From assembly GCA_947453695.1 (NCBI GenBank), contig CANGHW010000019.1:1-64000 (forward strand): a stretch of 64,000 bases of DNA. The letters are read 5' to 3'. Shown here piece after piece: positions 35,232 to 62,380 of this stretch (its first letter is position 1; every line of letters begins with the position of its first letter). The notes beneath the pieces were generated by a model, which ran no database searches, had not been told where the DNA came from, and saw only the letters and a program-made list of their open reading frames with translations. Made by a program: the position numbers and the translations under genes. This stretch comes from Opitutia bacterium (GTDB taxonomy: Bacteria > Verrucomicrobiota > Verrucomicrobiia > Opitutales > Opitutaceae).

Positions 35232-37766
35232 TCAGTGGTTGAAGACGAATTCTTTGGCGTTGAGGAGGGACCAGAAGAGGTCGTTCAGAACGACGTCCTC
35301 CTTTTTGCTTTCGCCGAAAAAGGCGGCGAGGGCGGTGGTTTCCTTCTCGGTGGGCGGCCGGCTCAAGGTGCGGACGTAGAGCTCGTCGATAATCTCGGCG
35401 CGGGTGCGGCCGGCTTTCTGGAGTTTCTTCACGAGACCGCCGTTGAGGACCTTGGCGTTGACGGTGTCACCGTTGAGGAGGTGGAGGGCTTGGGAGAGGT
35501 TGGGCTCCATCTTCACTTCGCAAGAGCAGGGGGTTTCGCGGGTGGCGCGGCCGAAGGTGGTGAGGAAATAGGTGCTGGTGCGACCGTCGGCGATCTCGAC
35601 GGCGCGGGCACCGTCGGGGAGGCCCTTGAGTTTTTCGGCGGCGCCGGTGACGGCGGTGATGGCGTCGAGGAGGACCTCAGCGCGGATGCGGCGGACGGCG
35701 GCGTGCGAGAAGTTGCGGTCGTCGCCGGCGTTGGAGTCGTTGGGCGCGGAGGAGAGCTGGTAGGTGCGCGAGGTGCAGATGTCGCGGACGAGCTGCTTGA
35801 AGTCGTAGCGGGAGGAAACCAGGCGTGCGGCGAGGGCGTCGAGGAGCTCGGGGTTGAGCGCGGGGTTGGAGACGCGCACGTCGTCGACGGGATCGACGAT
35901 CCCGCGGCCGAGGAAGTGGGACCACACGAGGTTGGCGAGATTGCGGGCGAAGAACGGGTTGTCGGGCGCGGTGAGCCAGTCGGCGAGGGCGGCGCGGCGG
36001 TCGGCGCCCTTGGCGAGTTCGGGAGCGGGGCCGCCGAGGAATTTCGGGGCGACGTCTTTACCGCCGACGGGGTGCTTCACGCCGCCGCTGGCGCTGTTGG
36101 TGATGATGGTCTCACGGGGATCTTCACCGGGTTTGCGGCCGACTTGGGAGAAGAAGGCGGCGAAGCCGTAGTAGTCGTTCATCGTCCAGCGGTCGAACGG
36201 ATGGTTGTGGCACTGGGCGCACTGGATGCGGACGCCCATGAGGGCTTGGGCGGCGTTTTCGGCGAGCTTCAGGGTGTCGCGCTCGACTTTGTAGAAATTG
36301 GCGGCGGGGTTTTCGAAGGTGGGGCCGGAGGCGGTGACGAGGTTTTTCACCATCACGTCGACGGGGACGTTTTGGGTGATTTGGTCCTCGAGCCAGTCGA
36401 AGTATTGGAGGGCGGACTTGGTGCTCATCTGCTCCTGTTGGTCGGCACTGCGGATCTGGAGGAGCTCGGCCCACTTCATGACCCAGACATCGACGAACTC
36501 GCGGCGGGAGAGCAGGGCGTCGACGGCGGTTTCGCGTTTCTGCGGAGAAGAGTCGGCAAGGAAGGCGCGGACGGCTTCGGGTGTGGGGAGAGTGCCGGTG
36601 ATGTCGAGCGTGGCACGGCGGAGGAAGGTGGCGTCGTCGCAGACAGCGGAGGGCGCGAGGCGGAGTTTGCGGAGCTTGGCGTTGACGTGGGTGTCGATGT
36701 AGTTGGCCTCGGCGACGGAGGCGGGCCAGGTGAAGTTCAGGTCCTTCGGAATCGAGAGTGCTTGGACGCCGGTGGCTTGGGTCTCAAAGCGAGCGGTGAT
36801 GAAGGCCTCGCCCCGGGCGAGGGCAGTCAGTTTGCCGGTTTCGGAAACTTTCACGGCCACGTCGTTGTTGGTCATGAAGACCGTGAGCGTCGTGACGTCG
36901 CGGTCGGAGCCGTCGGAGTAGAAGGCGCGGGCGTTGAGCTGCTGCGTCGTGCCCTCGCCGGCGAGCACGGATTGTTTCGGGTGGACCTCGAGGCGGACGA
37001 CCTGGGGCACGTTGGCCTTGTCCTTGGGGGCGCCGGCCTGGAGCCAGGCGAGGATCGTCCGGTAGTGTTCGCTCTCGGGCGTGAAGAGTTTGCCGCCGGT
37101 GTGCGGGACGCGGTTGGTGGCTTTTTCGAGGACGAGGCTTTCTTCCGGGAGAGCGAGGTTGATGCGGCGGGTGATGGATTCGCGGGTGAGGCGATAGTAA
37201 TCGCCGTCGGGATCGTAGCCGAAGAGGGAGAGACGGAAGCCGTCTTTGCCGCGGGACGAGCCGTGGCAGCCGCCGGTGTTGCAGCCGGCCTTGGTGAAGA
37301 CGGGCATGACGTCGCGGATGAAGCTGATGGGCTCGGCGGTCTTGGCGGCTTCGACTTTGACGGGGACGACGAGGGACTTACCGGAGAATTTAACGCGGAG
37401 CTCGGTGGTGCCGTCGACGAGCGGAGTGAGGGTGGAGCCGGTGGCGGTGACCGCGAGGTTGGCGAGTTTCTTGTTGGCGAGGGCGAAGGAAGACTCGGCG
37501 GTGACGTCGCGGGTGAGGCCGTCGGCGTAGGTGGCCTGGACGATCACGGACTGGCGGTCGCCGGAGGTGCGGAGATTGATGTCAGCGGGGTAGACGCGGA
37601 CCTCGGTGAGGGCGGGCTTGGCGGCGTGGGCGTTGAGCGCAGACAGGCAGAGAAGGAGAGAGAGGGGGAGCAGGAGAGAACAGATGGCAGGCGTAAAGCC
37701 GGCCCCACAGAGGCGGACGCGGGAGCGAGCGAAGTGGTGTGCGACGACGGCGAGGAAGGCTTTCAT
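35232..37766 (-). CDS. DUF1549/DUF1553 protein with cytochrome-like N-terminus
   Basis: The protein has 844 residues from the ATG at 37766. A signal peptide (LLLPLSLLLCLSALNAHA) is preceded by an odd n-region containing GAGFTPAI, which is encoded by a palindromic repeat. Two Ig-like/BIG2 segments follow. Then comes a heme-like motif in FTKAGCNTGGCHGSSRG, the DUF1549 domain (YIDTHVNAKLRKLRLAPSAVCDDATFLRRATLDITGTLP) with CAQCHNHPFDRW, and the C-terminal DUF1553 domain (NLVWSHFLGRGIVDPVDD, ALHLLNGDTVNAKV). It is expected in the periplasm. Its ATG overlaps the stop of the pre-peptidase gene (ATGA). The frame upstream to 38198 is shadow sequence. Confidence 0.88.
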   Translation of the reverse strand: MKAFLAVVAHHFARSRVRLCGAGFTPAICSLLLPLSLLLCLSALNAHAAKPALTEVRVYPADINLRTSGDRQSVIVQATYADGLTRDVTAESSFALANKKLANLAVTATGSTLTPLVDGTTELRVKFSGKSLVVPVKVEAAKTAEPISFIRDVMPVFTKAGCNTGGCHGSSRGKDGFRLSLFGYDPDGDYYRLTRESITRRINLALPEESLVLEKATNRVPHTGGKLFTPESEHYRTILAWLQAGAPKDKANVPQVVRLEVHPKQSVLAGEGTTQQLNARAFYSDGSDRDVTTLTVFMTNNDVAVKVSETGKLTALARGEAFITARFETQATGVQALSIPKDLNFTWPASVAEANYIDTHVNAKLRKLRLAPSAVCDDATFLRRATLDITGTLPTPEAVRAFLADSSPQKRETAVDALLSRREFVDVWVMKWAELLQIRSADQQEQMSTKSALQYFDWLEDQITQNVPVDVMVKNLVTASGPTFENPAANFYKVERDTLKLAENAAQALMGVRIQCAQCHNHPFDRWTMNDYYGFAAFFSQVGRKPGEDPRETIITNSASGGVKHPVGGKDVAPKFLGGPAPELAKGADRRAALADWLTAPDNPFFARNLANLVWSHFLGRGIVDPVDDVRVSNPALNPELLDALAARLVSSRYDFKQLVRDICTSRTYQLSSAPNDSNAGDDRNFSHAAVRRIRAEVLLDAITAVTGAAEKLKGLPDGARAVEIADGRTSTYFLTTFGRATRETPCSCEVKMEPNLSQALHLLNGDTVNAKVLNGGLVKKLQKAGRTRAEIIDELYVRTLSRPPTEKETTALAAFFGESKKEDVVLNDLFWSLLNAKEFVFNH
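37685..37713. repeat. Palindromic dispersed repeat, copy a (in DUF1549 gene)
   Basis: TGGCAGGCGTAAAGCCGGCC then CCACA. It is one of four copies of a GGCAGGC-GTAAA-GCCTGCC hairpin followed by CCAC. It lies inside the signal-peptide region of the DUF1549/DUF1553 gene and encodes GAGFTPAI on the minus strand. Confidence 0.75.
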
Positions 37767-48330: not shown

Positions 48331-48666
48331 TTACTTTTTCGCGGCGGGGGCGGCGGGCTTCACTTCTTCGAGGACCCAGCCGGTGGGTTGGCGGGACATG
48401 AGGCCGGTGATGGCGTCGCCGGCCTTGAAGATCTTGAGGGTGGGTTCGTCGACTTTGAACATCATCGTCATGGCGCGCATCACGCCGGGGATTTCTTCGT
48501 GTTTCACCATGAACGCGGATTTGTCGGCGAGGACAGACGTGATGACGCCCCGGAGCGGGTGGCGCTTGGGAGCGGCGGGAGCTTCGGCGGGAGCGGGAGC
48601 TTTTTCGGCGGCGAAGGCCGCGACTGGGGCGAGGGCGAGTGTGGCGAGAGTGAGGAGGTGACGCAT
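48331..48666 (-). CDS. CusF-like periplasmic copper-binding protein
   Basis: The 111-residue protein has a signal peptide (LLTLATLALAPVAAFA), an Ala/Pro linker, and a CusF-type OB domain: HPLRGVITSVLADKSAFMVKHEEIPGVMRAMTMMFKVDE. The His in VKHEEIPG and the Met pair in AMTMMF are the likely copper ligands (CusF uses His, two Met and a Trp). It would carry Cu(I) in the periplasm. The SCO protein nearby carries the same domain, so both act in one metal pathway. It lies downstream of the propeller gene on the same strand. Confidence 0.85.
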   Translation of the reverse strand: MRHLLTLATLALAPVAAFAAEKAPAPAEAPAAPKRHPLRGVITSVLADKSAFMVKHEEIPGVMRAMTMMFKVDEPTLKIFKAGDAITGLMSRQPTGWVLEEVKPAAPAAKK

Positions 48667-48720: not shown

Positions 48721-50130
48721 CTAGTGGCTGGCCAGAGTGGGAGCGATACAGAATTCGAGGGCGGTGGGGGAGGAGTTGAGCGTTGAGAGCTGTGAGTTGA
48801 GTGTCTTGGAGGTGGTGGTGAGGGCACGGGAGGTGGGACGTGTGAGGGTCGCGGGGTCGAGGGAAAGGAGTCCGACTTGGGAGGTTTCGCCGGTTTGGGT
48901 GTAGGAGAGCACGACTTGGCCGCTGGGGCGGAGGGCGGCGCGGGGGAAACCGCTGGAGCGGGCCGACGAGCTGGCGGCGACGAGCTGCGGGGCGGAGAGG
49001 GTGCTGTCGGGCCAGAGGCGGCGGGTGTAAATGCCGGCGGCGTTTTCGGCGGTGCCCAGTTCCATCCAAAAGATGAGGGCGGATTGGTCGCCGAGCATGA
49101 CGGTCTCGAGGCGACCCATGGGGCGGCCGAGGTCGATGACAACCGGGGCGGTGAAGGTGCGGGCGGAGTTGGCGGAGTAGGCGGATTGGACGCGGGGCGT
49201 GCCGTTGGCGGCGGTGAACCAGGCGACGGCGAGGGCGGGGCCGCGGGTATCGGCGGCGGGGCCGTTGACGGGGCAGGCTGGGATTTTCCAGCCGTCGTCG
49301 CGGAGCGTGGCGGGAGCGGTCCAAGTGCCGGATTTGAGATCGAAGAGGGAGAACTTGTTGTCGCGGATTTCGTCGGCGGTATGGCCGCGGTAGGCGGCGA
49401 AGACGCGGTCGCCGGGGAGGACGGCGACGGTGTTTTGGCAACAGGTGCAAACATCGGGATCGACGGTCCAGTCGCCGAGGGAAGTGCCATCGGGCGCGAG
49501 GAGGCGGGCCATGAGTTTCATGGCCGGGGCGTAGGGAGCATTCGGATCTCGCGGGGGGCGGGGGGCGTTGGGATCGCGTTTGGGGCGGGGAGCGGCGGAG
49601 GGGTCGTGCTGGCGGGTGCTCGCGAGCCAGACGGCGAGGGTGCGGCCCGAGCTGAGCGGGGCGAGGGCGACGAATTCTTTGCCGAGGGGAGCGGGCGTGC
49701 GCCACGTGAGGCCGCCGTCGTCGGAGCGGGAGAACCAGCCGGAGTAACTGTGCTGGCCGCCAGAATCGTTGTTCTGAAACCACTGGGCGGTGAGGGCGCC
49801 GTCGGTGCCGACGGCGAGGGACGCGAAATCGGCCCAGTTTTCCATGAGGAGCGGGGTCGTGATGATCGCGTGCGGCGAGGAGAAGGCGGTGGCGCCAGGG
49901 GAGAGGGAGGCATGCCAGAGCGTGCGGGCGGCGGGCTCAACGCCGGACGCGGAGGCAGTGGCGGGGCCGTAGTAGGTGAGGTGCAGCGTGCCGTCGGGGG
50001 CCGCAGTGAGGTTGGAGCACTGGGAAGCTGCGGGGGCGGGGGAAGGAAGATTTTCGATCTTGGATTTCGGATTTTCGATCGAGGCACCAAAGGCGAGGGC
50101 CGGCAAAAGGAGGCAGAGGACGAGTTTCAT
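48721..50130 (-). CDS. Exported sialidase-like beta-propeller with CxCC motif
   Basis: The 469-residue protein has a signal peptide (LVLCLLLPALAFGA) and propeller repeats with Asp-box-like turns (SRSDDGGLTWRTPAPL, YSANSARTFTAPVV). Two Cys motifs stand out: DPDVCTCCQNTVAVL near residue 230 and KIPACPVNGPAAD near residue 286, which could bind a metal or disulfide. No sialidase catalytic set was seen. Two peptides look repeat-derived: IENPKSKIEN just after the signal peptide (21-bp repeat at 50050-50080) and TLNSQLSTLNS near the end (21-bp repeat at 48773-48801). It lies 17 bp after the SCO gene, in the copper set. Confidence 0.72.
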   Translation of the reverse strand: MKLVLCLLLPALAFGASIENPKSKIENLPSPAPAASQCSNLTAAPDGTLHLTYYGPATASASGVEPAARTLWHASLSPGATAFSSPHAIITTPLLMENWADFASLAVGTDGALTAQWFQNNDSGGQHSYSGWFSRSDDGGLTWRTPAPLGKEFVALAPLSSGRTLAVWLASTRQHDPSAAPRPKRDPNAPRPPRDPNAPYAPAMKLMARLLAPDGTSLGDWTVDPDVCTCCQNTVAVLPGDRVFAAYRGHTADEIRDNKFSLFDLKSGTWTAPATLRDDGWKIPACPVNGPAADTRGPALAVAWFTAANGTPRVQSAYSANSARTFTAPVVIDLGRPMGRLETVMLGDQSALIFWMELGTAENAAGIYTRRLWPDSTLSAPQLVAASSSARSSGFPRAALRPSGQVVLSYTQTGETSQVGLLSLDPATLTRPTSRALTTTSKTLNSQLSTLNSSPTALEFCIAPTLASH

Positions 50131-50147: not shown

Positions 50148-51074
50148 TTAGAAGAATTTGAGGATGTCGTCGGGGGACCAGGCGGAGCCGTCTTCGCGGT
50201 GGAGGATCTTGCCGTCGGCGCCGATGAGCAGCGTGGCGAGGGTGTGCTTGAAGACGTTTTCGCCGGGCTCGGCGATGATGCCGAACTGGGCGAGGAGATC
50301 GCGGATGGCGTTTTCGGGTCCGGTGAGGAAGGAGAAGTTGGTGGTGTCGATGCCGCGCTCGGCGGCGTATTTCTTCAGGATGGGCGGGGTGTCGTAGGCG
50401 GAGTCGAAGGAGATGGAGACGAGTTCGAGGTTGGTGATGCCGCGCTTCTTGGCGGCGGCTTGGAGGGACATCATCTTAGCGGTGGAGGCGGGGCACATGG
50501 TCGCGACGGGGCAACGGGTGAAGATGAAGTTGAGGACGACGCGCTTGCCGCGGAACGTGTCGAAGGAGACGGCGCGGCCGTCCTGATTGTAGAGCGTGAA
50601 CGACGGGACGGCCTCGCCGACCTCGCGGTAGGCGTTCTTGCCGCGAGTGAAGGTTTCCTGGCGGAGGGCGAGGGCGGCGGCCGCGACGGCCTGGTCGGCG
50701 GGGGAATGGAGGAGCTTGAAATCGGTAAGCGGAAAAATGCCGTCGACGGGTGCGCCCATGGTGGCGGTGAGGCGCTGGCCCTCGCGGACGGTGGCGAGGT
50801 CGAGGCCGGCGACGGAAAACTCCATCGTCATCGCGGGCATGTAGCCGGGGATTTCCTCGTGGTGGATGAGGAGGACTTTGCGCGGGAGATCGAGGCCGAC
50901 GATTTCACCGCGGATGGGATGGGTAGCGGTGGCGGAGCTGGCGCCGGAAGATGGGGTAGCGGAGTTGGGAGATGAGGGAGCGGAAGAGGTGGCGGTCTCG
51001 GTGCGCGTGCAGGAGGCGGTGAGGAGAAGGAGGGAGAGGGGGACGGAGAGACGGAGGAGTGGGGCGACGTTCAT
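50148..51074 (-). CDS. SCO1/SenC lipoprotein fused to a CusF-like domain
   Basis: The 308-residue protein has a lipoprotein signal (LLLLTASC lipobox, Cys near residue 22), a Ser/Thr-rich linker, then a CusF-like domain (HPIRGEIVGLDLPRKVLLIHHEEIPGYMPAMTMEFSV). The C-terminal thioredoxin-fold SCO domain has FTRCPVATMCPASTAKM, where the two Cys are five residues apart instead of the usual three, and the conserved His in FKHTLATLLIGADG. SCO proteins deliver copper to the CuA site of cytochrome oxidase or act in thiol redox. The fusion ties copper binding to delivery. The gene precedes the propeller and CusF-like genes on the same strand. Confidence 0.88.
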   Translation of the reverse strand: MNVAPLLRLSVPLSLLLLTASCTRTETATSSAPSSPNSATPSSGASSATATHPIRGEIVGLDLPRKVLLIHHEEIPGYMPAMTMEFSVAGLDLATVREGQRLTATMGAPVDGIFPLTDFKLLHSPADQAVAAAALALRQETFTRGKNAYREVGEAVPSFTLYNQDGRAVSFDTFRGKRVVLNFIFTRCPVATMCPASTAKMMSLQAAAKKRGITNLELVSISFDSAYDTPPILKKYAAERGIDTTNFSFLTGPENAIRDLLAQFGIIAEPGENVFKHTLATLLIGADGKILHREDGSAWSPDDILKFF

Positions 51075-51185: not shown

Positions 51186-53477
51186 TCAGAAGGAAGTGCG
51201 GATGCTGAGTTCGGCGGTGCGGGGGTCGGAGAGGCGGCGCATGGTGGTGCCGGCGACGGTCTCGTAGGTCTCGTCGAGGAGATTGCGACCTCGCAAGGTG
51301 AACGTCGTGCGGCGGTAGGTGTAGCTCGCGGACGCGTCGAGAACGACATAGCCATCGGCGACGACGGAGTTGTTGGTGTTGCCAAAGCGGTCGCTCACGT
51401 AGCGCGGGCCGCCGCTGAGGGCGAAGCCGGAGGCGAAGCGTTTCGCGACGAAGAAATTCGCGACCCACTCAGGGACATTGCTCGGGCGTTTGCCTGCGCG
51501 GGAGATGATGCCGGTGCCGAGGTTTTCGTTGAAGTCGGCGAAGGTGGAATCGGTGTAGGCGCCGTTGAGTTCGACGCGCCAGCCGTCGCCGGGGGAAACG
51601 GCGAGGGCGGCTTCGATGCCTTTCGATTTTTGCGCGCCGATTTGCTGATTCGTGCGGATGCCGGTGACGGGATCAGTCGTGCTCGTGAGGAGATCTTTTT
51701 TGAGGAGATCGAAGACGGCGACGGTGGCGTCGAGTTTGCCGCGGAGGAACGTGCCCTTGAGGCCGGCCTCGTATTGCTGGCCTTTCTGGAGGGAGAAGTC
51801 GGCGCTGGTGGCGGTGAGCGAGACGAGCTGCGTGACGGGCTCGGCGGCGCGACTGAAGGAGGCGTAGGCGTTGATTTCCTTGGTGAAGATGAACACGCCG
51901 CCGATGCGGCCGGTGGTGGTGCGGTAGCCCTTCTTGAAGGTGGAGAACGGCGTGGCGGGCGTGGTGGTGTTGTTGGCGAGCGTGTCGCGCTGGAGCGAGA
52001 TGTGGTCGTAGCGCAGGCCGACGACGGCGCGGAAATTCGACGTGACGTCGAAGACATCCTGCAGGTGGAACGCGTGCGTCTCGACGCCGATGCGGGACGT
52101 CTTCTGGAAGCGCGAGGCGGGGCCGTAGCCGACATTCGGATTCAGGATCGTGACGGCGGGAATGGCGGTAACCTGGTTGCCGGCGGCGCCGCCGCGGATC
52201 TGGTCGTTGTGCTCGAAGACGGCGCCGACGACGAGGCGGTTGGCGTGGCCCGCGACCCGTTTCTTCAATGTGAGATCGAGGCGGTCGCCGATGAGCAGGT
52301 CGTCGCGGTAGATGAGGGTGAGGCCGCCGCGGGTGATATTCTTCGCGACGGGATTCCAAGTGTTGCTCTCGGTGTTCTTCCACTTGAGGAGCTGGTTGGC
52401 GACGTAGGACTCATTCCGGAGCTCGAGCTCGGGTGAGAGGCGGAGATCGGCGCGGACGCGGTTGAAGACGTTCTCGGTCGTCGCGTAGTTGTCGAAGAAG
52501 TTGTAGTTCGTGCGGCGGGCGGCGGGATCGACGCGGGGGTTGACCAGGCGGTCGGTGGCGTTGGCGAAGAGCCGGACCTCGGGCTGGGCGTTGGCGACGG
52601 TGGAGTTGACGACGGCGTCGTAGATGACGGGGTTGCCGTAGTAACTCTCGTTCCAATCGTCGAGGAAGGTGCCGAACCACGTGAGCGTGAGTTTATCGGT
52701 GGCGCGCCACGCGAGGGAGAGGGAAACTGCGTCGTAGCGCTGAGAGTTTCGCTCCTGGTAGGCGTAGGTTTGGTTATGCGAGTAATCGGCGCGGTAGCTG
52801 ACGCCGGACTTGCCGAGCGGGCCGCCGACGCCGAGGCCGACGCGGTAGCTGCCCCAGGCGCCGTAGCTGGCGAGGGCATCGTCGCGAAACTCGGACGAAG
52901 GGGATTTCGAGATGTAGTTTACGGCGCCGCCGATGGCGCCCTCGCCGAACATGAGGCCGTCGGGGCCTTTGAGGACTTCGATGCGGTCGAGGATGAAGGA
53001 GTCGACGGTGCGCGAGGACTGGGAGGCGGTGTTTTGGCGGATGCCGTCGCGCATGACGGTGACGTTGTTGCCGCCGAAGCCGCGGGTGGAGTAGGTGGGG
53101 ATGGAGCCGAAGCTGGTGCCGCCGGTCATGCCGACGGCGGCTTCGACGGCCTCGACGGCGGTGCGGAGGCCGCGGAGCTGCATCATCTCCTGGGTGATGA
53201 TGGAAACGCTGGCAGGAAGATCGCGGCTGGTGAGACCGAGGCGAGAGCCGGAGGTGGAGATGGCGTCGAGCGGGAGGGAGAAGTTGTTTTCCTTCTCGGC
53301 AGCGACGGCAAATTTATCGAGCTGGACGGGCTCATCTTTGGTGGCCGAGGCCGGAGCGGCGGGAGCGGATTTAGTCGCTTGCGCGTGAAGGGCGCTCGCG
53401 GAGACGGAGAGGAGGAGAGCCGCAGTCGTGTAGACGCGGAGTGGACGGGAGAGAGAGAAGGAGAGACGGAGAGACAT
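51186..53477 (-). CDS. TonB-dependent receptor, siderophore type
   Basis: The protein has 763 residues from the ATG at 53477, with a signal peptide (LRVYTTAALLLSVSASALHAQ). The TonB-box-like VQLDKFAVAAEK is followed by a plug: LGLTSRDLPASVSIITQEMMQLRGLRTAVEAVEAAVGMT, YSTRGFGGNNVTVMRDGIRQ and ILDRIEVLKGPDGLMFGEGAIGGAVNYISKSP. The barrel ends TAELSIRTSF. The plug form (G-x-R...P.SVSIIT, RGF) is that of the siderophore receptor group. The ligand is not known and a copper-related compound is conceivable given the neighbours. It is read with the SCO gene in the same direction. The longer frame to 53522 begins in repeat-like sequence. Confidence 0.85.
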   Translation of the reverse strand: MSLRLSFSLSRPLRVYTTAALLLSVSASALHAQATKSAPAAPASATKDEPVQLDKFAVAAEKENNFSLPLDAISTSGSRLGLTSRDLPASVSIITQEMMQLRGLRTAVEAVEAAVGMTGGTSFGSIPTYSTRGFGGNNVTVMRDGIRQNTASQSSRTVDSFILDRIEVLKGPDGLMFGEGAIGGAVNYISKSPSSEFRDDALASYGAWGSYRVGLGVGGPLGKSGVSYRADYSHNQTYAYQERNSQRYDAVSLSLAWRATDKLTLTWFGTFLDDWNESYYGNPVIYDAVVNSTVANAQPEVRLFANATDRLVNPRVDPAARRTNYNFFDNYATTENVFNRVRADLRLSPELELRNESYVANQLLKWKNTESNTWNPVAKNITRGGLTLIYRDDLLIGDRLDLTLKKRVAGHANRLVVGAVFEHNDQIRGGAAGNQVTAIPAVTILNPNVGYGPASRFQKTSRIGVETHAFHLQDVFDVTSNFRAVVGLRYDHISLQRDTLANNTTTPATPFSTFKKGYRTTTGRIGGVFIFTKEINAYASFSRAAEPVTQLVSLTATSADFSLQKGQQYEAGLKGTFLRGKLDATVAVFDLLKKDLLTSTTDPVTGIRTNQQIGAQKSKGIEAALAVSPGDGWRVELNGAYTDSTFADFNENLGTGIISRAGKRPSNVPEWVANFFVAKRFASGFALSGGPRYVSDRFGNTNNSVVADGYVVLDASASYTYRRTTFTLRGRNLLDETYETVAGTTMRRLSDPRTAELSIRTSF

Positions 53478-53509
53478 GTGAGAAAAACGCGTGGGTGGAG
53501 CTGGGTTCA

Positions 53510-53665
53510 CGCCGGCGGGCACGCGGACGCGCGGGCGTGGGAAGTTCGCGCAGGGGCGAACGAGTGGGTGGAGGCGCGGGCCACGAAGGGGATCGCGGGT
53601 CGGGAGACCCGGGCCACTAGGGCGGACGCGGTGGGGTCACGGGCTGGAAAGCCCGTGCCGCTTAG
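53510..53665. repeat. Imperfect long repeat R', upstream of TonB receptor
   Basis: About 155 bp that match 56480-56650 over most of their length. Both hold a GGGTCGGGAGACCCG hairpin and, further on, CACGGGCTGGAAAGCCCGTG. In each case the repeat reaches the 3' end of a small CxxC gene and the 5' side of a TonB receptor gene. Confidence 0.75.
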
Positions 53666-54060
53666 GCGCGCGGGGGTGGTAGCGGCGGGGCGGCGCGCTC
53701 GACGCTGGCGGGAGTGTGGTCGCTACGCGACCAGCGGACAGACGAAGGGACGAGGGCGACGAGCGAGGTGGACTCGGGCTCGTGCGCGAGGACGAGTTTG
53801 CCGGAGAATTTTCCGGACGGAATATCGCCGGGCGTGTCGGGCGAATCGGACTGCGCTTGCTTGGCGTGCGTCACGACGACGCAGACGCCGCAGCGGCCCT
53901 CGGGACTGAAGGTGCGGTCGAGGGCGATCCGGAGGGGAAGCGTTCGGTAGTTTTCGGTGAACATGCGCGCCCACGCGAAGGTCTGCACGACATCCCACTG
54001 GCTGCCGGTGGCGAGGAGCCACGCGGTCAGCGTGAGGACGAGGGCGAGTTTGCGGCGCAT
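53662..54060 (-). CDS. Small exported CxxC protein, copy 2
   Basis: The protein has 132 residues from the ATG at 54060. The signal-like segment is KLALVLTLTAWLLATGS. Then come DVVQTFAWARMF, NYRTLPLRIALDRTFSP and a CGVC (CxxC) motif near residues 57-60, followed by a Pro/Ser-rich tail ending PPPRA. It aligns without gaps over 68 residues with the protein at 56642-57025, with about 31 identities. I do not know a named family. The CxxC and the copper neighbours suggest a metal or redox role in the periplasm. It lies 84 bp after the receptor at 54145-56454. Confidence 0.72.
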   Translation of the reverse strand: MRRKLALVLTLTAWLLATGSQWDVVQTFAWARMFTENYRTLPLRIALDRTFSPEGRCGVCVVVTHAKQAQSDSPDTPGDIPSGKFSGKLVLAHEPESTSLVALVPSSVRWSRSDHTPASVERAAPPLPPPRA

Positions 54061-54108
54061 GGGCGAGAGTGGGCGGGGAAGGAGGCCGGGGGCGATAGCC
54101 GCGACGGT

Positions 54109-54128
54109 CCCGCCTCTCACGAGGCGGG
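54109..54128. repeat. Hairpin repeat downstream of TonB receptor, copy 2
   Basis: The same 20 bp as 51125-51144 (CCCGCCTCTCACGAGGCGGG), 16 bp after the stop of the second TonB receptor gene. Confidence 0.8.
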
Positions 54129-54144
54129 ACACGGGGAGGCGGGT

Positions 54145-56454
54145 TTAGAAAATATACTTCACGTTCAGGACCGTGGTGCGGTTGGGGAACGGGTGGAAGA
54201 TGAAGTATTTTCGGTTGAGGACATTATCCACGCCGAGGCCGGCGTTCCACTGGCGGTTAAGGCGGAGATTGGCGTGGAAGTCGGCGACGAACCAGGCGGC
54301 GAAGCCCTGCCACGTGTTCGGGTTGACGTCCGTGTTGTCGAGGGTGGTCCAGAGTTTGTCGCTGTAGCGGCCGGCGATGCTGAAAGCCCAGCGTTGGTCG
54401 GGGCGGTAGGTGAGGACGAAGGAGGCGCGCCAGTCGGGGATGTTGGGGAGCTTCTTGCCGATGGCGGCGTAGGCGGGCGCGGTGGCGCTGGCGCGGCCGG
54501 AGAGGGCGAGGGTCTGGGCGTCGAGGTAGGTGAGGCTGCCGGTGAACTCGAGGCCGCGGATCCCGACGTTGTTTTGTTCGAGGACGAGTTCGGCGCCGCG
54601 GGCGCGGACGTGGTCGACGTTGGAGAGGAAGGAGAAGAGTTGCGTGGAGCCGGGGAGGAGCGGGTTGAACTGCGCGATGATGGCGTCGTGGATGTCGTCC
54701 TGGAACAACGAGAGGCGGATGCGGCCGGCGGGGAGGTTGCGCTGGAGCTTGAGCTCGGTGGCGAGGACGTCGTCGGGCTTCAGGTTGGGATTGGGCGAGG
54801 TGAACGTGGTCCCGGTGGAGACGAGTTGGTAGAGCTCGGCGGCGGTGGCGAAGCGGTAGGCTTGGCCGACGGAAGCGGTGACGAGCCAGTCGGCGGATGG
54901 GGTGTAGGCGAGGACGGCTTTCGGGGAGAGGCCGTGGTCGCGGACGGTGGGTTGGCGGACGGTGGTGGGGCCATTGACGTTGAGGCCGTCAGAGGCGCGG
55001 AACTCTTCGTAGCGGGCGCCGGCGGTGAGCTTCAGCGTCGGGGTGAACGTGATGACATCCTGCAGCCAGAGGGCCTGAGTGCGGGTCTTGCCGCTGCCTT
55101 CGGTGGCGATGGCGGTGTAGGGGGAATCGGCGTTGCGCCAATCGGCGGTGTTGAAGGTGGGGTTGTAGAGTTTGGCGCGCTGATCCTGCGCGCCGAAGGT
55201 GACGGTGTGCGCGCCGGCGGCGGTGGTCGCGGATGATTTGCCGGGCCGCCAAGTGCCCTTGAGGTCGAGGGTGGACCAGCCGGTGCCGCCGAGGACGGCG
55301 ACGCGACCGGCGGCGCCGACGGTGGGCGTGGCGGCGGTGGTGGCGGAGGCCGTGGTGGGCGTGAGCTGGCGATCGCGGTCCATGCGGTAGAGCGTGGCGA
55401 TGGCCTCGAAGTCGAAGGCGCCGCGCGTATCGGAGCGGAGCGACAGACTGTGCGCGGAGTGCTCCTGGAGGAGGTCGTAGGTGCCGGAGGCGAAACCGGC
55501 GAGGCCGGCGAACGTGGGCTGGCCGGCGGTGTTGCGGAGGTAGGTCTCGGCGGTGGCGTCGGCGTCGTTGCGCCAGGCACCGATGGTGTAGGCGGCGCGG
55601 AGGGTGGTGGTGAGATCGTAGGCGAGTTTGAGTTTCGCATTGGTCATGCGCGTGTGGAGGAGCCCCGAGGCGCCGACAACCTGGGCGGGGGCGCCGAGGC
55701 GGCTGGTGGCGGCATAGCCACCGGTGGTGCCAGTAGGGAAGGTGGCGTTGGTGACGTAGGAAAGCGGTTGGGAATAGCTGTCCTGGTAGTTGGCGCTGAC
55801 CCAGAAGGAGAACTGGCCGAGGCGGTGGCCGACGGTGGCGGCGGTCTGGGAGGTGCGGTAGGTGTCCTGGGTGTCGTATTGGGAAAAATTTTGGAACGCG
55901 AAGGTCTGCTGCAGCGAAGCCTCGAACTTTTCCGGGAGGCGGGTGGTGATCTCCATGACGGCGCCCATGGAGTTGCCGGCGTAGGAGGCGGCGTAGGGGC
56001 CATACATCATGTCGACCCGCTCGATCTCGGCGGGGGAGACGAGGCCCCAGCGCGGGCCGCCGATGTTGTTGTTGTTGGCGATGAGCGCGGTGAGGAGCAC
56101 GCCGTCGGCGTAGACGAGACTGCGCGCGCTGGAACTCACGCCCCAGACGCGCGTGGCCATGATGGCTTGGGTGTCGCCGTAGTTGCGTTTGCGGAGGAAG
56201 ACGCTCGGGAGGTATTTCACGGCGTCCTCGGGATCGACGATGTTGATCGTCTCCTCGATGCGGGTGGCGGTGACGCTCTCGGTGACCTGCGGGAGCAGGA
56301 ATTTCTCGGCGACGGACGGAGCTTCGCGGATGACGAGCGGAGAGAGTTTTTCCACCGGGGCGGGGGCGGGCGCGGGCGTCTGGGCCGAGAGCGCGGAGAC
56401 GGCGACGGAGAGAAGGAGGGACAGAGAGACAGAGAGACGGAGAGAGGGAGACAT
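54145..56454 (-). CDS. TonB-dependent receptor
   Basis: The 769-residue protein has a signal peptide (LSLLLSVAVSALSAQ) and a Pro/Ala linker. The TonB-box-like LSPLVIRE is followed by the plug with INIVDPEDAVKYLPSVFLRKRNYGDTQAIMATRVWGVSSSARSLVYADGVLL and IERVDMMYGPYAASYAGNSMGAVMEI. The barrel ends RTTVLNVKYIF. It differs in its plug from the neighbour at 51186, so the two are not a simple recent duplication. The ligand is unknown. It is flanked by two copies of a small CxxC protein and by an imperfect long repeat. Confidence 0.85.
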   Translation of the reverse strand: MSPSLRLSVSLSLLLSVAVSALSAQTPAPAPAPVEKLSPLVIREAPSVAEKFLLPQVTESVTATRIEETINIVDPEDAVKYLPSVFLRKRNYGDTQAIMATRVWGVSSSARSLVYADGVLLTALIANNNNIGGPRWGLVSPAEIERVDMMYGPYAASYAGNSMGAVMEITTRLPEKFEASLQQTFAFQNFSQYDTQDTYRTSQTAATVGHRLGQFSFWVSANYQDSYSQPLSYVTNATFPTGTTGGYAATSRLGAPAQVVGASGLLHTRMTNAKLKLAYDLTTTLRAAYTIGAWRNDADATAETYLRNTAGQPTFAGLAGFASGTYDLLQEHSAHSLSLRSDTRGAFDFEAIATLYRMDRDRQLTPTTASATTAATPTVGAAGRVAVLGGTGWSTLDLKGTWRPGKSSATTAAGAHTVTFGAQDQRAKLYNPTFNTADWRNADSPYTAIATEGSGKTRTQALWLQDVITFTPTLKLTAGARYEEFRASDGLNVNGPTTVRQPTVRDHGLSPKAVLAYTPSADWLVTASVGQAYRFATAAELYQLVSTGTTFTSPNPNLKPDDVLATELKLQRNLPAGRIRLSLFQDDIHDAIIAQFNPLLPGSTQLFSFLSNVDHVRARGAELVLEQNNVGIRGLEFTGSLTYLDAQTLALSGRASATAPAYAAIGKKLPNIPDWRASFVLTYRPDQRWAFSIAGRYSDKLWTTLDNTDVNPNTWQGFAAWFVADFHANLRLNRQWNAGLGVDNVLNRKYFIFHPFPNRTTVLNVKYIF

Positions 56455-56479
56455 GGTGTGAGACGCGTGGGTGGTAAGT

Positions 56480-56650
56480 AGGACACGGCGGCGGGCACGC
56501 GGACGCGCGGACGTGGTGTAGGTTCGCCGCGACGGTGGGCGAACGGTGGGGGGAGGCGCGGGCCGAGGGGAATCACGGGTCGGGAGACCCGTGTCACGAG
56601 GACGGACGCGGTGGGGTCACGGGCTGGAAAGCCCGTGCCACTCAGGCCCG
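56480..56650. repeat. Imperfect long repeat R, upstream of TonB receptor
   Basis: Partner of 53510-53665. It shares GGCGGGCACGCGGACGCGCGG, the GGGTCGGGAGACCCG hairpin, and GACGCGGTGGGGTCACGGGC running to the stop of the small CxxC gene. Confidence 0.75.
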
Positions 56651-57025
56651 TGGGGGCGGGACGGGCACGGCCTCGGTGCGCGACGGTGCGACGCGCGCAA
56701 GCGTCGCGGGCCAGTCGGCGGAGGGGAGCAGGAAAACGGGGCGCGCGGGAGAGTGGAGCGCGAGGAGGAGTTTCTCGGCGGAGGCGCGCTCGACCGTGGC
56801 GGGGAGCTCGCGGGCCGCGGTGTCCTTGGCGGTGGCGACGCTCACGCAGAGTTCGCAGGCCTTGGCAGGATCGAAGGTCGCACGCAAGGCGGCGGCCACA
56901 TCCATGGTGCGGGTATTGTCGGAAAACATCTTGCCCCAAGCGAAGACCTGCACGGCGTCCAGCAGCGCGCCATTGGCGCAGAGCCAGGCGAAGAGGAGGC
57001 AGGCGATGGAGAGTTTTTTCCGCAC
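56642..57025 (-). CDS. Small exported CxxC protein, copy 1
   Basis: The GTG at 57025 gives 127 residues. The signal-like KLSIACLLFAWLCANGA is followed by DAVQVFAWGKMF, NTRTMDVAAALRATFDP and CELC (CxxC) near residues 57-60. The tail ends PPPRA as in its paralogue at 53662-54060. The conserved pattern D-x-VQ-x-FAW-x2-MF-x2-N-x-RT and the TF-x-P-x3-C-x2-C segment point to one family. It may be a periplasmic partner of the downstream TonB receptor. The frame is open to 58381, but that is antisense to the CobW gene. Confidence 0.72.
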   Translation of the reverse strand: MRKKLSIACLLFAWLCANGALLDAVQVFAWGKMFSDNTRTMDVAAALRATFDPAKACELCVSVATAKDTAARELPATVERASAEKLLLALHSPARPVFLLPSADWPATLARVAPSRTEAVPVPPPRA

Positions 57026-59755: not shown

Positions 59756-61111
59756 CTACTTGGCCGCGGGCAGCGCGGCGAGGACGGCGGCGGAGATTTT
59801 TTCGGCGACGGCGGGTGCGCTCGCATCGTCGAGGGGGAACGTGGCCGACCACGCGACGACGCCGTTTTCGGTGCGCAGGAGAAGGACGGCGAGGGCAGGC
59901 GGCGCGTCCGGGGAGAGTTGCGCGGCGAGGATGAAGTCGGCGTCGAGTTTTTGACCTTGGGCGACCAGCGCGGCGTCGGTGAGGGCAGCGGGCGCCTCAG
60001 GCGCGAGCGTAACATCGCCGGGTCGGGCCACACTCAGGCGGCCGAAGGCGGCGGTGAAGACGGTGTCGGCAAATTTCGTGGCGGCGGCATCGGTGAGGCC
60101 GAGAGCAAACGGGACGACGGCGAGCGGTTTGCCGGCGCCGGGATGACCGAGGCCCGCGGCCAGGCCGCGGACGAATTCCTTGCCGAGCTTGGCGGCCTCG
60201 GCGGGCGTGAGGTTGGGATCAGCTTTGGCCTGTTCGGCGGCGGCGCGGATGAATTTTTCCCCCTTGGGGGTGATGAGCGCCGCTTTCCGTTCGCGGGCGG
60301 GCTTTTTGTCCGTGTCGATCTCGGCGGTGTCTTTGCCGCAACGCGAGAAGAGCAACAGCACGAACCAGACGGTGAGCACGATGCGGAGCCACTTGGGCGC
60401 GCGCTTGAAGAGCATCCAGCCGGCGGTGAGCGCCCACCAGAGGACTTCGGCGAGGAATTTCAGGCCATGACCGAGGTGACCGAATTTATCGGGCACGTGC
60501 GGAAACGGCGGCATCGGCGGCGGGGCATGGTGTGCGGACTCCTCGACCGAAGGTGGCTCGGGTGGCGGAGGCGGGGGCGTGACCGGGGCTTTGCGCGCGG
60601 CGGAGGGATGGGACGGGCGATAGACCGGAGGGGTGGGGCGCGGCGGGGCCGAGTGTTCGCCGGCGAGGAGGCGGCGGCAGAGGGCCTCGAGCGCGGGGGT
60701 GGACTGGCCGCCCGGCAGGCGAAGCCATTGCACGGCAAGAAATTTGTCGGGGACGCGCGCGCCGGACTCACTCGTGTCGTCGATGACGACGGGGAGGAGG
60801 AACATCACGTCGTCGGCCATATCGAGCGTGCGCTCGGCGGCGAGGCGCCACTCGCGGCGGAAGTAGCCCTCCTTGCGCGCCTCGGTGGCGGCCGAGATCA
60901 TCGGCATAAAGTAGTCGCAGTCGCGGATTTGGCGGCGGATTTTTTGGTCCCAGGCGTCGCCCCCGCCCAACTCGTTTTCGTCATACCATACCTCGAGGCC
61001 GGTGGCAGAGAGGACGTCGCGCAAGGTGCGTGCGGCCGTGCGGTCTTCGGAGGCGTAGCTGATGAAGACGGACGGGCGCGGCAAGAGAGGAGGTGCGGCG
61101 TCGCTGGACAT
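59756..61111 (-). CDS. TIR-domain membrane protein with C-terminal TolB-like domain
   Basis: The protein has 451 residues from the ATG at 61111. Residues about 12-145 form a TIR domain (SVFISYASEDRTAARTLRDVLSATGLEVWYDENELGGGDAWDQKI, with FRREWRLAAER that would hold the catalytic Glu if it is an NADase). A Pro-rich linker and one hydrophobic stretch (LRIVLTVWFVLLLFSRC) follow. The C-terminal half (GKPLAVVPFALG, LDADFILAAQLSP) resembles the TolB-like/CsgG-related domain seen behind TIR domains in some bacteria. The TIR part would be cytoplasmic. A defence or signalling role is possible, but no partner gene is adjacent. The 3' end lies 7 bp from the MITE-like element. Confidence 0.78.
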   Translation of the reverse strand: MSSDAAPPLLPRPSVFISYASEDRTAARTLRDVLSATGLEVWYDENELGGGDAWDQKIRRQIRDCDYFMPMISAATEARKEGYFRREWRLAAERTLDMADDVMFLLPVVIDDTSESGARVPDKFLAVQWLRLPGGQSTPALEALCRRLLAGEHSAPPRPTPPVYRPSHPSAARKAPVTPPPPPPEPPSVEESAHHAPPPMPPFPHVPDKFGHLGHGLKFLAEVLWWALTAGWMLFKRAPKWLRIVLTVWFVLLLFSRCGKDTAEIDTDKKPARERKAALITPKGEKFIRAAAEQAKADPNLTPAEAAKLGKEFVRGLAAGLGHPGAGKPLAVVPFALGLTDAAATKFADTVFTAAFGRLSVARPGDVTLAPEAPAALTDAALVAQGQKLDADFILAAQLSPDAPPALAVLLLRTENGVVAWSATFPLDDASAPAVAEKISAAVLAALPAAK

Positions 61112-61285
61112 GGGAACAGCCGTGAAGCTCGTGCCGTGCCGGGGGCGGGTCAAGCCGGGGGCAGGCGTGGCGTGCCGTAGAAAAAGGGGACCGCTGAGCA
61201 GGAGGGCGGCGAATGGGGAGACAGCGAAACCAAAGATGACGAAAGATTTTTGAAACACGGATGCGCCTGAGGCGTCGATACGCCC

Positions 61286-62380
61286 ATGATTTTGGGAAAA
61301 CTTCGGTGGCAGTGGCTGGGCTTGGTGTTGGCGGTGACGGCCATGTGGATGGCGCGGAGTGGCGCGGCCGAGGCCGTAGCTGGGACCCACGATGCACTCG
61401 TCTACAAAGATGGTGATCGGGTGCAGGGCAGGCTCGTAAGCCGCGAGGGTGGGGTGATTGTTTTTAAGTCGGATCGTTTTGGGGAACTCCGGGTCCCGGC
61501 GGCTGATGCGGTCGTGATTTTGGCGGAGAAACCGAAGGCGACCACCCCGGCGCCTACTCCGGCGGCGGCGGGCGGGACGGCAGTGGCAGGTGCGAGCGCC
61601 AAGCCGGCGGGGGCCGTGCCGGGGGGCAAGACCGCGGCGGAGCGTGACGAAGAGGAGCGGATGACCCTGTGGGAACGTTTCTCGCCGTGGGTGTTGACGG
61701 CGCAGGTGCGCAATTTCTTCGGGCCGTGGCACGGGCGGCTGGCGCTCTCGACCGAGACCGTGGCGGATAGCACGGACCGGAAAAATTCGTCGGTCGACGC
61801 GACCTTGCGGCGCAAGTGGGAGCGCGACGAAGTGCAGCTCAATGGTCGCTTTGAATATAGCGAAACCGACTCGATCGCGACGACGGACGTGGTGAAGGCG
61901 ACGGGGTTGTGGCGGCACGATTTTACCGGGCGGCAGTTTGCCCAGTATCGCCCGAGCCTCGAATGGAACCGCGCCAATCGGAAGGCAGGGCTGCCGGCGG
62001 ACTACTTGCTACTCCAGCAGGAGATCGGCACCGGCTTCACGGTGCTAAACACACCGGGCCGCAAGCTGCGCACGGGCATTTCGCAGAATCTTTTCGACCT
62101 GTGGAACGCGCAGGAGTTTTCGCAGCACAATTCGCGCGGCGTGCAGTCGGCGTTTGAAGAAGTGGAGTGGACGCTGCCGTGGCGGATGTCGCTGGCGCAG
62201 CGCGGCGTATGGTATCCGGTGCCGAGCCAGGACGACGGGTGGGAAAACCGCGTCGAGCTCAACAAGAAGCTGACGGAGACGCTCAGCACCTCGCTGCGCC
62301 ACGAGATCCGGCGCAACAATCCCGACGGCACGGCGCAGGATTTCACGCGCTTGAAGTTGCTGGTGGGGCTGGATTTTTGA
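61286..62380 (+). CDS. DUF481-like outer-membrane beta-barrel protein
   Basis: The 364-residue protein has a signal peptide (LGLVLAVTAMWMARSGAAEA). A short strand region (DALVYKDGDRVQGRLVSREGGVIVFKSDRFGELRVPAADAVVI) and an Ala/Pro linker lead to a barrel-like domain rich in alternating residues (WHGRLALSTETVADSTDRKNSSVDATLRRKWERDEVQLNGRFEYSE). The end is FTRLKLLVGLDF, with a terminal Phe. This fits DUF481, a family of putative salt-induced outer-membrane proteins. It is divergent from the TIR gene across a 174-bp gap and stands alone. Confidence 0.8.
   Translation: MILGKLRWQWLGLVLAVTAMWMARSGAAEAVAGTHDALVYKDGDRVQGRLVSREGGVIVFKSDRFGELRVPAADAVVILAEKPKATTPAPTPAAAGGTAVAGASAKPAGAVPGGKTAAERDEEERMTLWERFSPWVLTAQVRNFFGPWHGRLALSTETVADSTDRKNSSVDATLRRKWERDEVQLNGRFEYSETDSIATTDVVKATGLWRHDFTGRQFAQYRPSLEWNRANRKAGLPADYLLLQQEIGTGFTVLNTPGRKLRTGISQNLFDLWNAQEFSQHNSRGVQSAFEEVEWTLPWRMSLAQRGVWYPVPSQDDGWENRVELNKKLTETLSTSLRHEIRRNNPDGTAQDFTRLKLLVGLDF

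Follow-up and report, generated by a model that had tools for sequence, protein, structure and literature searches.

Putative copper-responsive leader peptides preceding TonB-dependent receptor genes in Opitutaceae and other Verrucomicrobiota

Two small genes, each followed by a spacer and a receptor gene

A 64,000-nt stretch (the window) of contig CANGHW010000019.1, from the Opitutia bacterium (Opitutaceae) assembly GCA_947453695.1, contains two consecutive units of a small open reading frame (ORF), a spacer and a gene for a TonB-dependent receptor (TBDT), together occupying positions 57025–51186 of the minus strand (Table 1). A preliminary description of this DNA had located the small ORFs, spacers and receptor genes correctly. 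From the analyses reported here we conclude that the encoded small proteins, P0001 and P0002, are probably arrest-peptide leaders that respond to copper and belong to a new family. The start codon of P0001 was chosen by alignment to 64 homologues, the majority of which begin with M-R. The two proteins are homologues, with 38% identity over 126 amino acids (aa; E 1.5e-18) and 42% identity in a MAFFT alignment; both carry a CxxC motif at residues 57–60 and share the C-terminal sequence PPPRA, a likeness that had been recognised before.

The two receptors, previously thought to differ in their plug, are indeed different, and throughout their length: neither retrieves the other in a BLAST search (E 1e-5, more than 150 aa aligned), which makes them distinct receptors and not paralogues in which the plug has changed. 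Receptor 2 matches the structures 9RVQ/9RVX over its full length with an E value of 9.9e-72 (next-best structure, 3.6e-30). These structures represent CrtA of Bordetella pertussis, a copper receptor encoded directly behind the leader ORF cruR (PMC12914433). Among the CrtA ligand residues checked, E337 is kept in receptor 2 (E370), while Y130, Q356 and H358 are replaced by T150, I389 and R391, respectively. Since three of these four residues differ, including the essential His358, the exact ligand of receptor 2 may differ. Receptor 1 gave only weak matches in the PDB and is neither OprC-type nor CrtA-like.

A small-protein family found across the phylum

Neither P0001 nor P0002 matched a Pfam or NCBIfam family, in agreement with the earlier statement that no named family applies, and a PDB search with a profile of the small-protein family matched nothing. 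An AlkZ-like match of P0001 (E 0.0066) was dismissed as chance, as it fell under the cut-off and was seen in no other member. By single-sequence search, homologues were detected in 143 of 200 genomes and 38 of 49 genera of the window's taxonomic family, mostly in single copy. A profile of 65 members, searched against the phylum Verrucomicrobiota, found them in 70 of 289 genomes, representing 44 of 152 genera and several classes. The genomes are mostly metagenome assemblies, and genes outside the window were called by a simple in-house caller. The named relatives of the small proteins belong to Opitutaceae and other Verrucomicrobiota; the genome of strain IMCC26134, for instance, contains one copy (L233).

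Alignment of 106 members revealed fixed positions at Q26, W30, M33, T50-F51, C57-x-x-C60 and a terminal P-P-P-[R/K/Q]. The CxxC motif is present in all 106 and PP[RKQ] in 103, nearly always within seven residues of the stop codon and usually within one to four. Such an ending is rare elsewhere: of 901 further proteins encoded at these loci, a single one has PPP[RKQ] within its last 12 aa. The distance from CxxC to the proline motif is 59–72 residues (mode 62–64), and the intervening sequence is variable. Judged by composition, a hydrophobic 12-mer is found near the N-terminus in 105 of the 106 members, and K or R among the first 10 residues in 104. AlphaFold on 60 sequences predicts for P0002 a helical head containing the CxxC motif (residues 1–72, block means of pLDDT 84–94), a mostly disordered part from residue 73 to approximately 120, and an extended tail.

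The association of the small genes with TonB receptors and copper genes, noted before at this locus, extends far beyond the window. The window and 60 other loci of its taxonomic family hold 65 leader genes; a TBDT gene starts at most 0.9 kb after 49 of them, a gene for a Cys-containing outer-membrane barrel (cluster c5) does so after nine, and a TBDT gene lies further on in four. Elsewhere in the phylum, the 41 leader genes precede a TBDT (14), a c5-like barrel (8), a later TBDT (2) or other genes (17); the examples inspected among the latter encode NosL, cytochrome c, a TonB protein and a sigma factor. CusF, SCO1, PepSY_TM, CusB and CusA are encoded further downstream across the loci. The leader generally comes first: a close same-strand gene upstream was found for only 7 of the 65.

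Receptor groups were compared with curated families through representatives, not through every member. The largest group behind the leaders comprises 19 members, and its representative scores 672 bits against the TonB-copper family TIGR01778 (cut-off 472) and matches OprC with an E value of 1.6e-157. The second group, with 11 members including receptor 2 of the window, is CrtA-like. In the congeneric genome L081, the gene behind the counterpart of leader 2 encodes an OprC-type receptor, not a CrtA-like one. Mapped on a tree built from the 65 leaders, the following gene switches class at least 22 times.

Two further gene sets were observed behind leaders. At loci L043, L074, L079, L245 and L255, the leaders are followed by genes for PEP-CTERM, pseudopilin-like and His-rich exported proteins, possibly a surface copper system; a 258-aa member of this set had no Pfam match. 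Directly behind the leaders of L247, L267, L269 and L275 are genes for His/Met-rich outer-membrane barrels with the motif SYRYMxMxMDG, which are candidates for an undescribed copper-related barrel family.

Spacers, palindromes and neighbouring genes

Leader genes are separated from the following gene by a median of 158 nt, compared with 80 nt for other co-directional pairs, and mostly by 100–300 nt. The spacers are poor in A, and 98% of them are richer in C than in G, compared with 72% of control gaps (p 1e-4). Neither of the two spacers in the window has an intrinsic terminator on the coding strand, no known riboswitch or small RNA from Rfam scored above the gathering score, and only 1 of 58 following genes is preceded by a Shine-Dalgarno-like site. 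A short hairpin, GTTCGC-loop-GCGAAC, is common to the 3' half of related spacers, with little covariation. In a subset of leaders (e.g. L080, L081, L082, L091 and L093), the stop codon lies inside the loop of a 5–8 bp GCGCG/CGCGC hairpin. The enrichment of this stop-codon hairpin (mean stem 3.4 vs 2.6) was discarded as a signal, being confounded by GC content and shared ancestry.

Spacers R and R' align over 180 bp with 83% identity (E 2e-43). This likeness had been described as a long imperfect repeat, duplicated together with the small gene; the likeness itself holds, and it traces mostly to local conversion and dispersed palindromes. A full-length copy of the R/R' match was found nowhere else in the genome, and R is pair-specific in part only. 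A palindrome, GGCACGGGCTTTCCAGCCCGTG, makes up its first 25 nt, with 20 sites in the genome at no more than two mismatches and none for a reversed control. Its sites often occur in close inverted pairs, and it looks like an element of the repetitive extragenic palindromic (REP) type. In L081, the counterpart of R' carries such palindromes, and that of R is without the palindromic half. R and R' are 87–89% identical in their 5' halves; over the first 95 nt, R is 87% identical to R' and 58–59% identical to its own counterpart in L081, which makes a conversion event within this genome, from R' onto R, the simplest account of the repeat. A mobile R/R' unit was rejected: the genome has no further full copy, and the congeneric R counterpart is missing the palindromic half. 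A second dispersed palindrome family, GGCAGGCNTAAAGCCTGCC, was observed in the window at 37680, 40118, 47378 and 48234.

Downstream of receptor 2, the SCO gene noted before additionally encodes a CusF domain. Genes of cluster c2, to which the neighbouring propeller-like protein belongs, occur near a leader in 20 of 61 loci (60 other loci and the window), and one relative has a weak BNR_2 match. Upstream of the window's leaders, a TIR-domain-like protein (FISYASEDR...) is encoded at 59756–61918 on the minus strand; homologues (cluster c15) lie on the same strand just upstream of the leader in several other Opitutaceae loci (e.g. L047, L072, L081, L089 and L090).

Table 1. Features of the two leader–receptor units and adjacent genes in the window
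Feature	Position	Strand	Remarks
Leader ORF 1 (P0001)	56642..57025	-	GTG start; hydrophobic N-terminus, CxxC, C-terminal PPPRA
Leader 1 CxxC (CELC) codons, proposed copper site	56846..56857	-	CxxC in 106/106 family members
Leader 1 PPPR codons, proposed arrest site	56648..56659	-	one residue ahead of stop
Spacer R (187 nt), leader 1 to receptor 1	56455..56641	-	rich in C, poor in G/A
Palindrome GGCACGGGCTTTCCAGCCCGTG in spacer R	56618..56639	-	dispersed, 20 genome sites
Second palindrome in spacer R, CACGGGTCTCCCGACCCGTG	56574..56593	-	read from sequence
Hairpin GTTCGCC-N9-GGCGAAC, 3' half of spacer R	56522..56544	-	same stem, different loops in related spacers
TonB-dependent receptor 1 (cluster c20)	54145..56454	-	Pfam barrel and plug
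Leader ORF 2 (P0002)	53662..54060	-	ATG start
Leader 2 CxxC (CGVC) codons	53881..53892	-	family alignment
Leader 2 PPPR codons, proposed arrest site	53668..53679	-	family alignment
Spacer R' (184 nt), leader 2 to receptor 2	53478..53661	-	
GGCACGGGCTTTCCAGCCCGTG-type palindrome in spacer R'	53638..53659	-	
Hairpin GTTCGC-N6-GCGAAC in spacer R'	53544..53561	-	
TonB-dependent receptor 2, CrtA-like copper receptor homologue	51186..53477	-	
CusF domain fused to SCO1/SenC, predicted exported	50148..51074	-	Pfam PF11604 and PF02630
Cys-containing (CTCCQN) propeller-like protein (cluster c2)	48721..50130	-	
CusF-like copper-binding protein	48331..48666	-	Pfam PF11604

Copper-sensing arrest as the proposed function

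Two characterised leader systems share the anatomy found here, and on this basis we interpret P0001 and P0002 as arrest-peptide leaders that sense copper. The first is CruR (BP2923) of B. pertussis, a DUF2946 (PF11162) protein with CXXC and RAPP motifs and a 162-bp gap before crtA, which was named bfrG at the time; when CXXC senses copper, the arrest at RAPP is relieved and Rho terminates transcription within the gap (PMC9426467). The arrest at RAPP was later demonstrated in vitro (PMC12992588). As in cruR operons, a small first ORF encoding a CxxC motif and a C-terminal proline arrest motif precedes a long, C-rich spacer and a copper TBDT, PepSY_TM or SCO gene, and the CrtA-like receptor behind leader 2 is of the type under cruR control. 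The second is CutF of Rhodobacter capsulatus, in which copper binding during export prolongs the stall and opens a stem-loop over the ribosome site of the next gene (PMC9973294). The small-protein family agrees with the published working filter for CutF-like proteins, of which there are 29 clusters, in size (fewer than 150 aa), in having PP among the 15 C-terminal residues and in having a same-strand gene within 1,000 nt (PMC9973294); it also has a hydrophobic N-terminal segment. It differs from CutF in having CxxC instead of CxxxC, a spacing of approximately 63 instead of 45 residues, mostly more than 100 nt before the next gene, other downstream genes and no Shine-Dalgarno site to shield. 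SecM, ApdA, ApdP and relatives, the RAPP/RGPP arrest peptides, likewise combine a leader ORF and a C-terminal proline arrest motif with regulation of the next gene; however, they monitor the Sec/YidC machinery through R-A/G-P-P-like motifs (RAGP in SecM), whereas the present family has PPP-R, CxxC and copper genes. The commonest gene downstream, in turn, is of the OprC type. By sequence the small-protein family is neither CruR nor CutF, and by function it is probably their relative in kind.

We consider it quite likely that each small gene is a copper-responsive leader ORF whose arrest state sets the expression of the copper-receptor gene behind it. The nascent chain would enter the export path through its N-terminal hydrophobic segment, copper would be bound by the helical head through CxxC and possibly the invariant Met33, and the C-terminal PPPR would halt translation just where the ORF ends. 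A change in this stall once copper is bound would decide whether the downstream gene is expressed. For uptake receptors of the OprC/CrtA type the expected polarity is that of CruR, with stalling and expression at low copper, and release and shut-off in its presence; where efflux genes follow the leader, the polarity may be reversed. The lack of an intrinsic terminator, the C-rich spacers and the near-absence of Shine-Dalgarno sites make us lean, weakly, towards Rho-dependent attenuation in the spacer as the output step, rather than shielding of a Shine-Dalgarno site. Given that approximately 30 residues are held in the ribosome tunnel (PMC9973294) and approximately 63 separate CxxC from the arrest motif, the head could be past the membrane during the stall, in which case the copper sensed would more likely be exported, periplasmic copper. 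The analysis shows the anatomy of the leaders, their conservation, motif spacing and gene neighbourhood, and the relationship of the following receptors to known copper receptors; from these we infer arrest, copper binding, polarity and the involvement of Rho.

Several observations weigh against this interpretation. DUF2946 was matched by none of the 65 members at E ≤ 10, and hhalign comparison with 12 DUF2946 proteins of the same phylum gave a probability of 3.7% over seven columns, with only CxxC aligned; membership of DUF2946 was rejected on the basis of this profile comparison and the Pfam scan. The proposed arrest motif is PPPR instead of the proven RAPP/RGPP, and the distance from CxxC to the motif, 59–72 residues, is longer and less constant than that in DUF2946 (45, varying by 1–2). 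Outside the taxonomic family, 17 of the 41 leaders precede genes without a TBDT or c5 profile match, and some downstream genes, such as that for the sigma factor, are not obviously related to copper. An excess of C over G is already frequent in control gaps, and a conserved, strongly folded spacer was rejected, because z-scores of the minimum free energy did not differ from those of control gaps (p 0.12). The small-protein family also differs from CruR in lacking a His-rich segment, in its conserved W/Q/W/M helices and in its hosts, Verrucomicrobiota rather than mostly Proteobacteria.

Genuine DUF2946 small proteins of the CxxC/RAPP type (PF11162 above cut-off) were observed in 9 of the 289 Verrucomicrobiota genomes (L161–L170). 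Both leader types therefore coexist in this phylum, and genome G321 has both.

A CutF-type output, in which the stalled ribosome opens an mRNA structure hiding the next start and copper switches expression on, is rather unlikely overall, and might apply at least before CusB/CusA efflux genes. As a variant of the same leader interpretation, it shares part of the likelihood given to that interpretation above. The CutF precedent (PMC9973294), the hairpin that related spacers share in their 3' half and a barrel gene with CusB/CusA genes behind the leaders of L055 and L070 speak for it. However, a site that could be shielded precedes just one of the 58 following genes, the spacers are no more structured than control gaps, and they mostly exceed 100 nt, whereas most CutF-like gaps are shorter than 100 nt (PMC9973294).

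The preliminary description favoured an exported accessory protein for metal-linked TonB uptake. Its observations on the lack of a named family and on the TonB and copper context stand, and the accessory role is not the best-supported reading. Such a membrane-anchored copper-binding protein, acting in its mature form as a chaperone or receptor partner, would suit the export-type N-terminus, the invariant CxxC, the constant company of copper receptors and N-terminal helices whose conservation (W14, G19, Q26, W30 and M33) would be unusual in a signal peptide alone. It would leave unexplained why a disordered and variable linker leads to a PPP[RK] that keeps its place at the stop codon, why the gap to the next gene is long, and why one small gene precedes many unrelated gene classes, and we regard it as improbable. 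Retention of the PPP[RK] tail and the spacer through repeated changes in the class of the next gene is the behaviour of a cis-acting leader, as demonstrated for CruR (PMC9426467) and CutF (PMC9973294). A recent tandem duplication of gene and spacer without regulatory meaning, with a mobile palindromic element as the spacer repeat, would fit the dispersed palindrome and 5' halves of R and R' that are far more alike than the proteins (only approximately 40% identical), but is highly implausible, as the two leaders sit on separate old branches of the leader tree, both have counterparts in congeneric L081, and conservation of the family, fixed motifs included, spans the phylum.

Copper-responsive leader ORFs have so far been reported mainly from Proteobacteria and Bacteroidota. 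The main texts of the CruR and CutF papers do not name Verrucomicrobiota (PMC9426467, PMC9973294), and in the literature searched for CruR or TonB-copper receptors together with Verrucomicrobiota we found no description of such a family, which is unrecognised by Pfam and NCBIfam and yet present in about a quarter of the sampled Verrucomicrobiota genomes. A fuller account, which we put forward tentatively and at somewhat less than even likelihood, is that these are phylum-wide copper-sensing arrest peptides that either originated independently of DUF2946 or diverged from it beyond recognition. They would stall at a PPP-R site, have a longer tether by which the copper site lies beyond the membrane while the ribosome is stalled, read periplasmic copper and serve as a portable switch, shuffled among OprC-type, CrtA-like and other copper genes. 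If the leader interpretation is true, PPP-R would be a new arrest motif, and nascent-chain copper sensing would have arisen or diverged more than once. The presence of a leader would then point to copper-handling proteins among the uncharacterised receptors, barrels and surface proteins of Verrucomicrobiota.

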